The notes beneath the pieces were generated by a model. The model was not told the origin of the DNA and searched no databases. It saw only the letters and a program-made list of their open reading frames with translations. DNA of 22,898 nucleotides from a virus. The position numbers and the translations under genes are program-made. This document shows, piece after piece, positions 2,670 to 7,408 of this stretch. Position 1 is the first letter of the stretch; each line of letters starts with the position of its first letter. The stretch is from positions 1-22,898 of the IMG/VR virus record IMGVR_UViG_3300042887_001148, one strand, 5' to 3'.

Positions 2670-2909
2670 ATTACTATTACTTATTAATTACTTAAAAATT
2701 ACCAAAAAATTACCAAGCGTATGCCTTACTACCATTGCTCTATATTATTATTATTATTAAAAAGTAATAAAGTAATAGAGAAATACAACATTTATACGTT
2801 TTTTGTTTTTGATATGTTTTTGCCATAGCTTTTGGATTATTACCGATATTTATTACTTTGTTGATTTTCAGCATATTAAATAGTAATTAGTAATTTTAGT
2901 AATATTACT
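2670..2909. repeat. AT-rich intergenic region with ATTACT/AGTAAT repeats; candidate origin
   Basis: The 242-bp gap between the helicase and nuclease genes has no plausible gene. On the + strand ATTACT occurs at 2670, 2676, 2687, 2852 and 2904, and AGTAAT at 2763, 2771, 2882, 2889 and 2898. Three ATTACC variants lie at 2698, 2709 and 2839. The last pair forms a perfect 12-bp palindrome (2898-2909) overlapping the helicase stop codon. A (TTA)n run lies near 2746-2758. I see no TAnnTTTG box for leftward transcription here. The density suggests binding sites for a phage protein, either a replication origin near the primase and helicase or an operator. Confidence 0.55.
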
Positions 2910-4503
2910 ACGCAAACCTTGGCATCTCTTCATTAGGGTCATCAACTGAATCGTTTTGTTTATTAACTACTTTATTTTTAATATGATACGGATTTTTAAA
3001 TAGAAAAGGAAGTCCAGTTTTGCTCACTTGTGGATAGTTCTCATTTGGAAATCCTTTATACTTTTTATTTTTTAAACATAAGATTTTCATTTCATCATTT
3101 ATAACTTTACGAATATAAGACATTGTAATTTGATTATTAGTATTAAACCATTTTTCCTTAACATCCCTCGCAGTTACTTCAATAAATTCTATGCCATCAT
3201 TATTCATAAAGAAATCCTCAAAATTCATTTCTATTTCTTTTCTCAATGTTGATTTGCTTTCCTCCATTACAGCGTGTAAAGATTCGGTTTGTATTTCATC
3301 TTTGGTAAAAACCATACGCGATTTGCTGAAGTCTATTGCAGGAAGTTGCATAAGATATTTAAGAAACTTTGGTATCTCGTTAAATAAATCGTTTTCAATG
3401 TTAGTGTTTTTTTTGCCTTTAATAAGTTTAATTTTGCGCACCCAAAAGCGAATTTCCTCTTCATCAATTCTCATAAAGTCAGATTCTTTGTTCGTGCAAA
3501 AAATAACTTTGCCAAAAAATGGCACACTATAATGACTAACAAACTTTTGTGAAACCGACATTGTTTTTGCAGTTGCTATTGATTTCAACTTTTCAATTGC
3601 GTGTTGTTTGTCAATTGTAGTTTCATCAATCATTATAATGTTCTTTGTCGCATAAGCATCATTAAAGTTACTTGTAAGGTCACTTGGGTTAATTAAGGTA
3701 GTGTTTTCTCCAAACAACATTTGAATCCAATTAAGAAAAGTTGTTTTACCCGTTTCGCGCTCGGTAGAAACAAGTGCTAATACTGGCAATATTTGGCGCG
3801 GATATTCGTATAGTATTTTCATGTATTTCAAACCAAGCTCCCATTGCTCACCAAATATGTGATTAATCAATCCCAAGGTAACAGGTATATCATTTGTGTT
3901 GACCTCATCAATAACGAATTTATGCGCAAATTTAGCGTAAAGGTTATAACAGTTGTTAAGCACTGGAGTATATTCAACATTGTCGGGATAGATAGTAAAG
4001 TCATCAAACTTATAAATCATTCCGAGTAATTGTTTGCCATGGTCTTGCTTTATTTCATCTTTTTTCCAAGGTTTAAGAAGTGTGTTTTCAGATTTGTATC
4101 TGTCTTTTTTGGCTATAACTTTAAAGTAATCAGTTCCCACCCTAATATAAGGTATATCGGATTTCATTATTTCAAAATTAACATAAGACATTGCAGCAAA
4201 TGAATCGCCTTGGAATTTAACTGCGGCTAAAACCATAAATTTAGAAACTTTGGCCCCAACACCAAGTCGGTAACTATTTTTTTTCATCACATCAATAGTG
4301 TTTAACTTATTGAGAATGAAAGTCGGTTTGTTAAGTTCCTGTGGATCTAAACTATCAGGGTTAAGTAAACACACTTCCGTTTCGGATTTTACGTTGCATT
4401 GTTTTATGCCCTCGAAAATTGAAATAAATGAGCCAAAGAAGTTGAAGTAATCCACCGCGTTTAAAAGCGGGTTTGATTCAGGTTTTTTAAATTTGTCGCT
4501 CAT
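2908..4503 (-). CDS. Replicative helicase, superfamily 3 / DUF5906-like
   Basis: The C-terminal half of this 531-residue protein is an SF3-type helicase ATPase as found in phage primase-helicases. It has a Walker A-like loop ERETGKTT (248-255, K253), Walker B NIIMIDE (288-294), a sensor strand VIFCTNKE (333-340, N338) and arginines R352/R356 that could act as finger residues. The Walker A lacks the usual first glycine (S246 sits nearby), a variation I believe is common in this family. The N-terminal 240 residues show no motif I recognise. The start overlaps the primase stop by ATGA, so helicase and primase are translationally coupled and probably work as one replication unit that unwinds and primes the phage genome. 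Confidence 0.85.
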   Translation of the reverse strand: MSDKFKKPESNPLLNAVDYFNFFGSFISIFEGIKQCNVKSETEVCLLNPDSLDPQELNKPTFILNKLNTIDVMKKNSYRLGVGAKVSKFMVLAAVKFQGDSFAAMSYVNFEIMKSDIPYIRVGTDYFKVIAKKDRYKSENTLLKPWKKDEIKQDHGKQLLGMIYKFDDFTIYPDNVEYTPVLNNCYNLYAKFAHKFVIDEVNTNDIPVTLGLINHIFGEQWELGLKYMKILYEYPRQILPVLALVSTERETGKTTFLNWIQMLFGENTTLINPSDLTSNFNDAYATKNIIMIDETTIDKQHAIEKLKSIATAKTMSVSQKFVSHYSVPFFGKVIFCTNKESDFMRIDEEEIRFWVRKIKLIKGKKNTNIENDLFNEIPKFLKYLMQLPAIDFSKSRMVFTKDEIQTESLHAVMEESKSTLRKEIEMNFEDFFMNNDGIEFIEVTARDVKEKWFNTNNQITMSYIRKVINDEMKILCLKNKKYKGFPNENYPQVSKTGLPFLFKNPYHIKNKVVNKQNDSVDDPNEEMPRFA

Positions 4504-5378
4504 GCTTTGTTTAAATAAGTTGGTTGTGTAATTCCTTTGTTAATCATTTCTTTGCTTGTTTGCTTGTATATTGATGCCTTTTGCGATAGATAACCGTTGC
4601 CATCAATCATTTTCTGCATTGCATCAATAGCATGTTGTTGGTCAATATAACCAGCACCAACATAACCACCCATTAAATAAGCTGCGGCCCTTAATTGTGG
4701 ATGACCATTGTCAACAATTACGTTTATTTTTTTTGCAATAATACGTTCTATTGTTGAAGTTTTGTCATCAATTATGTATTGTTTAGTCGCAGGCCTAACG
4801 ATTTCAATGTGTTTTGTTGACCAAGTTTGCGCATCATTTCTGTGTAGAATGTCGGCATCGTAACTTATAAACATAGGTAAAATGCAATTCTTTGGCGCTG
4901 TGTCAAAACCATTGTAACAGTTAAGGTGTCGCTCAATGCCTGCATAGTATTGTTTAAATTCATCAACCGAAGTGCAAATCGGAATCTTAACCAGTGCGCG
5001 AACACCATGCCTTGAAGCCGATAGCCACGCGGTTATTATGTATTTGTATTCATTAAATAAATACTCTTTAAATTCAACTGCGACATCGGATGCTAAATGG
5101 TCGAAATCCAAAACAAGCAATCCAGTCCAATGTTGAATATTAGAATACTTACGCGGGCCATTAACGTAAACACATGGAGTGAATGAGTATAGTTTTGACT
5201 TTAATGCTTGCTTTTTGGCCATGTCTTTATTTTCCTCCGCAATCCTTATCTCCTCAAATACATTGCGGATATCTTTTTTAGGTGTTCTAATCGCATTTAT
5301 AAGATATTCAAGCGTAACACTACCAAGTGGAGTGCTACGTTTGATATCCGCTTCGTAATAGTTAAAAATAGGATTCAT
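4500..5378 (-). CDS. Archaeo-eukaryotic-type primase, BT4734/VirE-N-like
   Basis: This 292-residue protein resembles the BT4734-like primase domain often linked to mobile DNA in Bacteroidota. The catalytic pair is LVLDFDH (88-94; D91, D93). It is followed by the nucleotide-binding stretch SASRHGVRALVKI (120-132) with H124, then FDTAPKN (158-164) and ISYDAD (171-176), in the order expected for the family. The final 100 residues look helical and include Gly-rich YLMGGYVGAGYID (about 233-245), which may contact DNA or the helicase. In many relatives primase and helicase are one polypeptide; here they are two genes joined by a 4-bp overlap. The likely job is making primers for genome replication. 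Confidence 0.82.
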   Translation of the reverse strand: MNPIFNYYEADIKRSTPLGSVTLEYLINAIRTPKKDIRNVFEEIRIAEENKDMAKKQALKSKLYSFTPCVYVNGPRKYSNIQHWTGLLVLDFDHLASDVAVEFKEYLFNEYKYIITAWLSASRHGVRALVKIPICTSVDEFKQYYAGIERHLNCYNGFDTAPKNCILPMFISYDADILHRNDAQTWSTKHIEIVRPATKQYIIDDKTSTIERIIAKKINVIVDNGHPQLRAAAYLMGGYVGAGYIDQQHAIDAMQKMIDGNGYLSQKASIYKQTSKEMINKGITQPTYLNKA

Positions 5379-5503
5379 TTGTATTGATTTGAATTATACT
5401 TAAAATCATCCTTAACTATTGCTTTTTGAATAGCGTGAAACTTTGTATCAGCGTTTAGTGTGTAAACTTTACCGCTTGGTGACTTTATAAAAAATATTTT
5501 CAT
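5375..5503 (-). CDS. Small basic protein ahead of primase, unknown function
   Basis: This is a 42-residue protein starting MKIFFIKSPSGKVY. An in-frame ATG lies further upstream (5575), but it would place 24 codons through the hairpin region, so I take the ATG at 5503. The leader before it is A/T-rich with no Shine-Dalgarno. The stop overlaps the primase start by ATGA, implying coupled translation. The sequence suggests one beta-hairpin and a helix. I do not recognise it. Its position makes it the first gene read after the attenuator-like RNA element, so it may set primase translation or interact with the replication proteins. Confidence 0.6.
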   Translation of the reverse strand: MKIFFIKSPSGKVYTLNADTKFHAIQKAIVKDDFKYNSNQYK

Positions 5504-5516
5504 AACTGTTAAAATT

Positions 5517-5603
5517 AAAAAAGCCCTTAAAGATTTGCAAGGGGTCTCACTTCCTTGCGCCTCTATAAGGGCCAATATTGTTATGTTTCTATAATGTGAG
5601 ACC
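5517..5603 (-). promoter_or_regulatory. Terminator-like RNA element with alternative pairings (candidate attenuator)
   Basis: Three perfect pairings are visible in the 117-bp gap between the exonuclease and the small gene. GCCCTTA (minus, 5572-5566) pairs with TAAGGGC (5529-5523), followed at once by six T (5522-5517), as in an intrinsic terminator. Nested inside is GCAAGG (5558-5553) with CCTTGC (5542-5537). GTGAGACC (5550-5543) sits in the loop of that inner hairpin and is exactly complementary to GGTCTCAC (5603-5596) just upstream. With no linker between the loop strand and the inner stem, the 8-bp pairing should not coexist fully with the inner hairpin, so the two may be alternative states. 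No ligand or protein partner is evident. Confidence 0.6.
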
Positions 5604-5620
5604 GAAACAACTTTGTAAAC

Positions 5621-6244
5621 TTAATGAATTTTTCCCAAAGTAGCAAGCATTTTTTTATCGTATTGCTCCAACCATTCTCGGCACTGAATCACACGTTGAA
5701 TTATCTGTTGTTCAATAGTTACATCGCGCTGCACCTGATAGGCAACCCATCTTTCGTTATCTGGTAAGTCATCATAAACAACCTCGCCATCATAGTTCGC
5801 CTCCTCTGGTGTGTTCATAAGGCCATGAAAAACTATAAACGTTGGCCTTTCATAAAGTGCCATGTAACCGCGACCTTGCCACTCGTAATCGCTATTCATT
5901 CCCTCAATAGCTTGTTGCTGCAATGTTTTACGCGACCACGCTGCCTTAACATCAACTATTAAGTGATTAGTAATTACATCGCACGTTCCAACCATCCATT
6001 CATTATGCACCGTTACTTCGTTTTTTTCGGCCATACCAAGTCCGATTTGCTCGGCCATAAAATCAATTAGGTCAATTTCAACTAAGTTACCTTTCATAAT
6101 ATACTTGGAATGGATTTGTTCTCGGTCATTTGCATACCATTCCATTAAGAATGTTTTGCACGTTGCTGACAATTCTCCTTTAGTTTTTGCGTTGCTCATT
6201 ATCTTACCGATTTGAGAGCAATGTATTTTAAAAATTTTATCCAT
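5621..6244 (-). CDS. YqaJ/RecB-like PD-(D/E)XK exonuclease
   Basis: This 207-residue protein carries the motif series of phage recombination exonucleases related to YqaJ and lambda Exo: KGNLVEIDLIDFM (51-63; E56), GTCDV (86-90; D89), LIVDVKAAW (95-103; D98, K100) and YEWQGRGYMALY (120-131; Q123, Y127). These residues form the metal-dependent active site. The family digests double-stranded ends 5'-3' so that a partner protein can anneal the exposed strands. The start overlaps the upstream conserved protein by 8 bp, and a DUF3127-like protein follows upstream, together forming a recombination cassette. No RecT/Erf-type annealing protein is recognisable, so one neighbour may fill that role. Confidence 0.82.
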   Translation of the reverse strand: MDKIFKIHCSQIGKIMSNAKTKGELSATCKTFLMEWYANDREQIHSKYIMKGNLVEIDLIDFMAEQIGLGMAEKNEVTVHNEWMVGTCDVITNHLIVDVKAAWSRKTLQQQAIEGMNSDYEWQGRGYMALYERPTFIVFHGLMNTPEEANYDGEVVYDDLPDNERWVAYQVQRDVTIEQQIIQRVIQCREWLEQYDKKMLATLGKIH

Positions 6245-7373: not shown

Positions 7374-7390
7374 GGGGGTGTTTAGCCCCC
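7374..7390 (-). promoter_or_regulatory. Small G/C hairpin between two early genes
   Basis: In the 63-bp gap between the genes starting at 7660 and 7345, GGGGG and CCCCC form a perfect 5-bp stem with a 7-nt loop, standing out from the AT-rich surroundings. On the minus strand, the direction of the flanking genes, no run of T follows, so it is not a standard terminator there. It could stabilise the mRNA end or act as a weak pause; on the plus strand it is followed by TTGTTTGTT. Confidence 0.4.
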
Positions 7391-7408
7391 TTGTTTGTTA
7401 GTGTTAGT

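Follow-up and report, generated by a model that had tools for sequence, protein, structure and literature searches.

Attenuation in plasmid pT181 controls the replication gene repC. In the leaders of the ColIb-P9 and IncB plasmids, a pseudoknot controls repZ; the output there is translation, and the partner of the leader loop lies downstream. Cobalamin, preQ1 and other riboswitches also use kissing loops or pseudoknots. In P4-type RNA immunity, the CI RNA is encoded upstream of the alpha primase-helicase, is processed, and acts in trans in lysogens. In the pT181-type attenuators, loop-loop kissing governs the leader hairpin and the terminator (PMC3753616).

The leader described here lies on the minus strand (5517-5608) of a 22,898-nt stretch (positions 1-22,898) of an IMG/VR virus record, called the window below. 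It resembles the pT181-type antisense attenuators in having a leader hairpin and a terminator before a replication gene, and in loop-loop kissing. However, pT181 uses an antisense RNA in trans, whereas the partner loop of the phage leader is in the same RNA. As in ColIb-P9 and IncB, a leader loop pairs in cis with a stretch of the leader ahead of a replication gene, but in the phage leader the partner is upstream and the loop is part of a terminator-like hairpin. The leader shares with kissing-loop and pseudoknot riboswitches a 5' location, a tertiary loop pairing and a terminator. In contrast to these, the phage leaders had no Rfam match in the scanned sequences and no obvious core common to the classes, and their pairing and terminator look compatible. 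P4-type immunity is similar in that a structured leader RNA precedes a primase-helicase operon. Among the phages studied here, none of 21 records matched the integrase family PF00589, and seven records held no further copies of the pairing 8-mers of class A, the sequence class of the window leader. The nearest mechanisms in print act by kissing in trans or have a different output, and we found no such leader described in the literature.

Gene order and anatomy of the leader

The minus-strand gene order in the window is recombination exonuclease, leader, 42-aa ORF, BT4734-like primase and DUF5906 protein (Table 1). The 42-aa ORF had no match in Pfam or PHROGs. Variants of it (42-50 aa) directly follow many class A leaders and overlap the next gene. 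The phage group carrying the leader is uncultured, and its hosts are probably Bacteroidota bacteria. Elsewhere in the window, a terminator-like repeat, GGGGGTGTTTAGCCCCC, lies on the plus strand at 7374-7391, in a gap between ORFs of the other strand.

The leader RNA is about 95 nt long and runs from the exonuclease to the 42-aa ORF as hairpin P1 (GUUUC-GGUCUCAC-AUUAUA-GAAAC), an A-rich linker, a two-part terminator hairpin and U6. The 8-mer GGTCTCAC in the P1 loop (5596-5603) is exactly complementary to GTGAGACC (5543-5550) in the apical loop of the terminator. The apical loop is made up of AA, 8 nt and 0 nt, with the partner strand filling it. The hairpin has the sequence features of an intrinsic terminator, with a GC-containing stem followed directly by the U tract, and both parts of the stem covary. 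The predicted fold of a 116-nt stretch was 3.2 sd below dinucleotide shuffles, and 1 of 200 shuffles was equally stable. Upstream of P1, a promoter-like box at 5616-5646 overlaps the stop codon of the exonuclease gene; its last base, A, deviates from the Bacteroidota promoter consensus TAnnTTTG.

The original prediction for this region had described a terminator stem with U6, an inner hairpin, and an 8-nt loop sequence complementary to a strand just upstream. The stem and inner hairpin were found again on the minus strand at 5517-5572, as was the 8-nt match. The upstream strand had been seen correctly, but its hairpin had been missed: P1 (GUUUC/GAAAC) encloses the 8-mer in its loop.

Table 1. 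Positions of the leader elements and neighbouring genes in the window
Feature	Position	Strand	Details
Recombination exonuclease	5621-6244	minus	phrog_5715; upstream of leader
Putative Bacteroidota-type promoter	5616-5646	minus	TTG 5644-5646, 20 nt, TAAGTTTA 5616-5623
Hairpin P1	5585-5608	minus	5 bp, GUUUC 5604-5608 / GAAAC 5585-5589; predicted fold and alignment
Kissing strand a, GGUCUCAC	5596-5603	minus	in P1 loop; exact complement of 5543-5550
A-rich linker, P1 to terminator hairpin	5573-5584	minus	alignment
Terminator hairpin	5523-5572	minus	outer stem b 5562-5572/5523-5533; inner stem c 5553-5558/5537-5542
Apical loop a', GUGAGACC	5543-5550	minus	AA (5551-5552) before; 0 nt before inner stem
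U6 tract	5517-5522	minus	sequence
42-aa ORF	5375-5503	minus	first gene past leader; overlaps primase start
BT4734-like primase	4500-5378	minus	PF08800, phrog_23402
DUF5906 / primase-helicase type protein	2908-4503	minus	PF19263, phrog_1156

Covariation in class A homologues

A primase query led to 40 loci, several of which carried the element with other letters on both pairing strands. A pattern built on the P1 side then collected further homologues, together with unrelated matches. This pattern fixed three of the eight bases of the upstream strand and none of the partner strand, and the complementarity, which was not asked for, was exact in all 32 distinct class A sequences. In the kissing helix, 256 of 256 alignment cells were paired. 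Double-sided changes occurred in four of its eight pairs (47 cells); the other four were invariant, three of them being fixed by the pattern on one side. P1 was paired in 98.1% of cells, with one compensatory pair, GUUUC/GAAAC to GUUAC/GUAAC, in 3 of 32 rows. Both-sided changes were present in 6 of 10 pairs of the outer stem and in 5 of 6 pairs of the inner stem. Over all 29 class A pairs, 98.6% of cells were paired, against 82.9% in column shuffles, and only 27-46% paired when the partners were slid by 1-3 columns; because the sequences are related, the cells cannot be counted as independent. Pair types were no more numerous than in the control (33 vs 33.0).

Because its relatives keep the pairing exactly while the letters change, the kissing-loop leader is a real element, and apparently an undescribed one. 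The intrinsic-terminator shape would also suit an ordinary terminator that happens to carry a complementary 8-mer, the chance match for which the original prediction had left room. This reading is practically ruled out by the 32 of 32 homologues with double-sided changes, and by a strict scan for the layout that returned 25 matches against 3 in 20 shuffles (see below). The original prediction had also staked its case on compensatory changes in the 5543-5550 and 5596-5603 strands, and the homologues carry them. The broader part of its reading is also supported: a conserved RNA that looks regulatory and includes a terminator precedes the primase-helicase operon.

Compatibility of the loop pairing with the terminator

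Loop-loop complexes can pair whole loops while the stem stays closed. We compared 16 representative elements, among which those of the same class do not count as independent. Room for a further pair beyond the complementary stretch was present at only 1 of 32 edges. The apical loops consisted of 0-2 nt, the partner strand and 0 nt, so the 3' spacer was 0 nt throughout. As the pairing stops at the loop edges and the 3' spacer has 0 nt, the modelled terminator hairpin and the kissing pairing can probably coexist. In the minimum-energy folds, both pairing strands were wholly unpaired in 9 of 16 elements, and one or both were partly paired in the other 7. Relative to the hairpins, a nested fold on the a:a' helix alone cost 7.0-16.6 kcal/mol in 15 of 16 elements and 1.0 kcal/mol in the element D1; these energies compare nested folds, and the kissing state cannot be scored by them.

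Since the pairing is confined to the loop and the exclusive folds cost more, a mutually exclusive terminator/antiterminator switch is unlikely according to these models. The original prediction had proposed such a pair of alternative folds, arguing that the missing linker made coexistence unlikely. Instead, the 0-nt 3' spacer suits pairing of the whole loop above a stem that remains closed. A ligand or factor might nevertheless decide whether the terminator forms or the 8-bp helix by itself acts as an antiterminator, as this helix is real and could form before the terminator closes. We consider this very unlikely. The complementarity stays out of the stem at 31 of 32 edges, the exclusive fold carries the energy cost given above in 15 of 16 elements, and the classes lack both an obvious common core of the kind that an aptamer needs and an Rfam match. 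No ligand, trigger or antiterminator was found for the leader.

Rfam gave no match on the leader at the gathering score, nor at E up to 0.5 in ten loci. The Rfam matches seen lie elsewhere: L050 has a tRNA stretch, and L184 a SCARNA7 match below threshold. Comparison of the classes by eye revealed no shared aptamer core. These two results, and the lack of support for exclusive folds, speak against a ligand riboswitch. A type III toxin-antitoxin RNA, with tandem pseudoknot repeats and a ToxN-like gene behind them, does not fit either: no tandem repeat was found in 5300-5800, and the genes after the window leader are the 42-aa ORF and the primase.

The same layout in other sequence classes

Using the exonuclease and Gam/Gp157-like proteins as anchors, we read the sequence after the stop codon at 143 places. 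By pattern, 50 of these belonged to class A and 7 to class C. The remaining 86 were sorted by eye into 6 class A leaders with GUUAC, 33 further class C leaders (two cut short), 9 class D leaders, 17 plain hairpin terminators, and 21 places with neither a leader nor a plain hairpin. A separate class E leader followed further on, before the primase gene, at 16 of the 17 plain-terminator places; the 17th locus ends too soon to show one.

Every locus, with redundancy retained, was then scanned for the layout. With a promoter box, a 0-nt 3' spacer and an ATG no more than 22 nt away required, there were 232 matches, against 1 in one shuffle. The strict scan covered 17 phage contigs and the window (650 kb) and gave 25 matches, against 3 in 20 shuffled copies together. 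At least one convincing match was present in 16 of the 17 contigs, which were mostly chosen for an already known element, and none in G018. One strict-scan match, L307 (31-aa ORF), is probably due to chance. Looser scans were noisy (893 real vs 547 shuffled; 61 vs 34 and 31).

The upstream strands of the classes differ in sequence: GGUCUCAC, GAUUCCAC, GGUUCGAC and GAUCUCAC in class A; GAUUGAC, GAUUCAC and CUCUAAC in B; ACC(C)GCCAA in C; GUUGCGG and GUUGCGC in D; GAUACAG and GAUGCAG in E; GUAGAAG in F; GUAGGAG in K; and GGUCUCA in M. In classes A, D, E and K, this strand lies inside a predicted hairpin loop, giving loop-loop kissing. In classes B and C it is predicted to be single-stranded, with no clear hairpin loop, giving loop-linear pairing. 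Loop-loop kissing is therefore a feature of some classes only. Among the 17 sequences of class C, pairing was kept in 84 of 85 kissing cells, with no double changes among the counted pairs, and 2 of 6 inner-stem pairs were doubly changed, no excess over shuffles (2 vs 1.3). The covariation evidence is thus weaker in class C than in class A.

Some features were particular to single classes. Class B leaders open with an extra hairpin, CGGAGUnACnAACCG, directly past the promoter box (L326 7898; L016 4893-5012); each of the 7 distinct sequences of this class has it, as the collecting pattern required. The 39.6-kb contig G015 carries two class C leaders, L330 and L331, each ahead of a similar primase start, which reflects either a duplication or an assembly effect. 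UUGGCG occurs in the apical loop of class C leaders, for example around 3833 in L033, and these 6 nt are also found in the kissing loop of plasmid pMU720 (PMC3753616). This is probably a coincidence.

Promoter motif, start codon and downstream genes

A two-box Bacteroidota-type promoter motif stood in front of 111 of 120 contexts, compared with 92 of 5400 windows of background, although for classes E and K the box belonged to the discovery filter. Class A alone had the motif in 49 of 52 contexts, against the same background. Of the 51 class A contexts that have a -7 box, 50 show a spacing of 7 nt from the end of the box to P1. On the opposite strand within 150 nt, a motif search found a two-box promoter-like motif in 1 of 51 contexts of class A, 8 of 15 of B, 2 of 28 of C, 0 of 6 of D, 0 of 13 of E and 0 of 5 of K.

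In the tabulated classes, an ATG lies about 9-20 nt past the terminator stem, although the genes differ. The U content before this ATG averaged 59% in 14 representative leaders; the corresponding value for 461 ORFs from the same phages was 29% (sd 12%). Classes C, D and E have interruptions in their U tracts, so termination there may be weak. The leaders mostly stand ahead of replication modules or DNA methylases. The first genes after them include the 42-aa ORF and a 57-aa ORF, a primase with PF08800 (classes D and E), a DUF5906 protein or a 61-aa ORF (class B), a C5 methylase (class K) and an N6/N4 methylase (class M). Some class A loci lead into DUF6291 and DnaB modules, and a helicase is also among the genes behind leaders. 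At L118 the next gene encodes an HNH endonuclease and is not a replication gene. An origin or primer-RNA reading was set aside because the layout also precedes methylases.

The distance to the ATG bears on another reading, in which read-through is normal and the knot protects the mRNA at its 5' end or sets ribosome access at the ATG. The constant spacing, the structure at the very 5' end and the interrupted U tracts of some classes would all suit such a shield or translation element. The U-rich stretch past the stem, however, differs from other start regions and fits a terminator, and we regard this reading as unlikely.

Alleles and specificity

Among 25 distinct class A elements sharing the same upstream exonuclease, pairs with the same kissing allele (116) had hairpins that were on average 96.5% identical, compared with 63.0% for pairs with different alleles (184). 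The identity of the 300-nt flanks was 89.7% and 89.8%, respectively. By this comparison, the class A leader occurs as discrete types that are swapped independently of the upstream flank. The pattern would fit a specificity determinant, but would also fit recombination between modules.

Discrete alleles, together with an own promoter-like box and terminator, are also what a stand-alone small RNA gene might show. Its product, a knotted RNA of about 95 nt, would act elsewhere on host or phage RNA or protein. Against this, the classes have the following ATG, on the same strand, close by and at an almost fixed spacing, an argument that compact genomes weaken, and seven records held no further class A 8-mer copy. 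We give this small RNA a low but appreciable probability.

The leaders might also form an RNA specificity code, in which the terminated leader of one phage, or of a copy that arrived earlier, closes the terminators of nascent leaders of the same type in trans and thereby shuts the replication genes. Such a code would account for alleles that are discrete and freely exchanged at a single site, but we consider it distinctly unlikely. No further copies of the pairing 8-mers were found in 9 of 10 records checked (7 of class A, 1 of C and 1 of E are among those lacking them), and the class D record G011 held two, against about four expected by chance. None of the 21 records, which may be incomplete, matched the PF00589 integrase. 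Neither lysogeny-based immunity nor an encoded trans partner is supported by these searches.

Occurrence in named phages and bacterial genomes

Among named phages, blastn with the class A query returned 6 records (E 0.1-0.4, at most 23% covered) and with the class C query 11 records (E 0.05-0.6, at most 17% covered); the class E query had no match. The class K query matched 53 records, and among the matches listed all lay at query positions 104-171, the methylase start, with the leader (about 28-108) outside the matched stretch. At seven Bacteroides phage loci around the methylase start, another gene is annotated shortly upstream, where it either ends or continues. Inspection by eye with simple folding revealed no such knot in the primase-region gaps between genes of Cellulophaga phi18:1 and phi17:1 or of Flavobacterium lotta8-1 and FPSV-S8. 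The strict scan gave no match in six whole named records (phi18:1, lotta8-1, FPSV-S8, BT16, P2559Y and FPSV-S1) or in two partial ones (OP947161 and Gundel_1).

The class A model R1 had no match in 198 Bacteroidota genomes under stricter filters. Under laxer filters, it matched in the MAG holding L143, and not in the Chitinophaga genome. L143 (CANMBF010000074.1) was the only real class A leader among the genome-contig matches; its 4.6-kb contig, from a Bacteroidetes MAG, carries these phage genes as well and probably belongs to a phage that was binned with the MAG.

Proposed function and implications

We lean, with moderate confidence, towards a leader that acts in cis as a 5' transcription attenuator of early phage operons, here of the replication operon. 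The polymerase would start at or just before P1. P1 would fold first, and its loop would capture the terminator loop as the terminator emerges, so that P1, the kissing helix and the terminator would be locked into one rod. This rod would set how often the polymerase stops at the U tract rather than reading through into the primase-helicase genes. Polymerase speed, an elongation or RNA-binding factor, or a competing RNA are candidates for shifting the balance.

Attenuation is favoured because the kissing is kept with double-sided changes, the layout recurs, and a promoter box, a short distance to the ATG and a U-rich stretch accompany it. It is also favoured because a plain terminator ends the upstream operon at 17 of the 143 places and the class E leader then follows in 16 of these. 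We counted against it the lack of a clear loop in classes B and C, the partly paired strands in 7 of 16 folds, the interrupted U tracts, the HNH endonuclease at L118, and the 21 of 143 places with neither leader nor hairpin.

The element would represent a class of leader RNA in which the 5' end of the transcript holds the loop of the terminator; in these phages it stands before replication and methylase genes and keeps its geometry while the sequence is swapped. Should the element control termination, it would give these phages an easily re-coded timing of early genes, and would provide a natural set of distinct kissing attenuators. The discrete alleles raise a directly testable question of specificity. 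If the specificity code were true, it would amount to an RNA-only incompatibility or superinfection system, with the loops of each allele defining its type.
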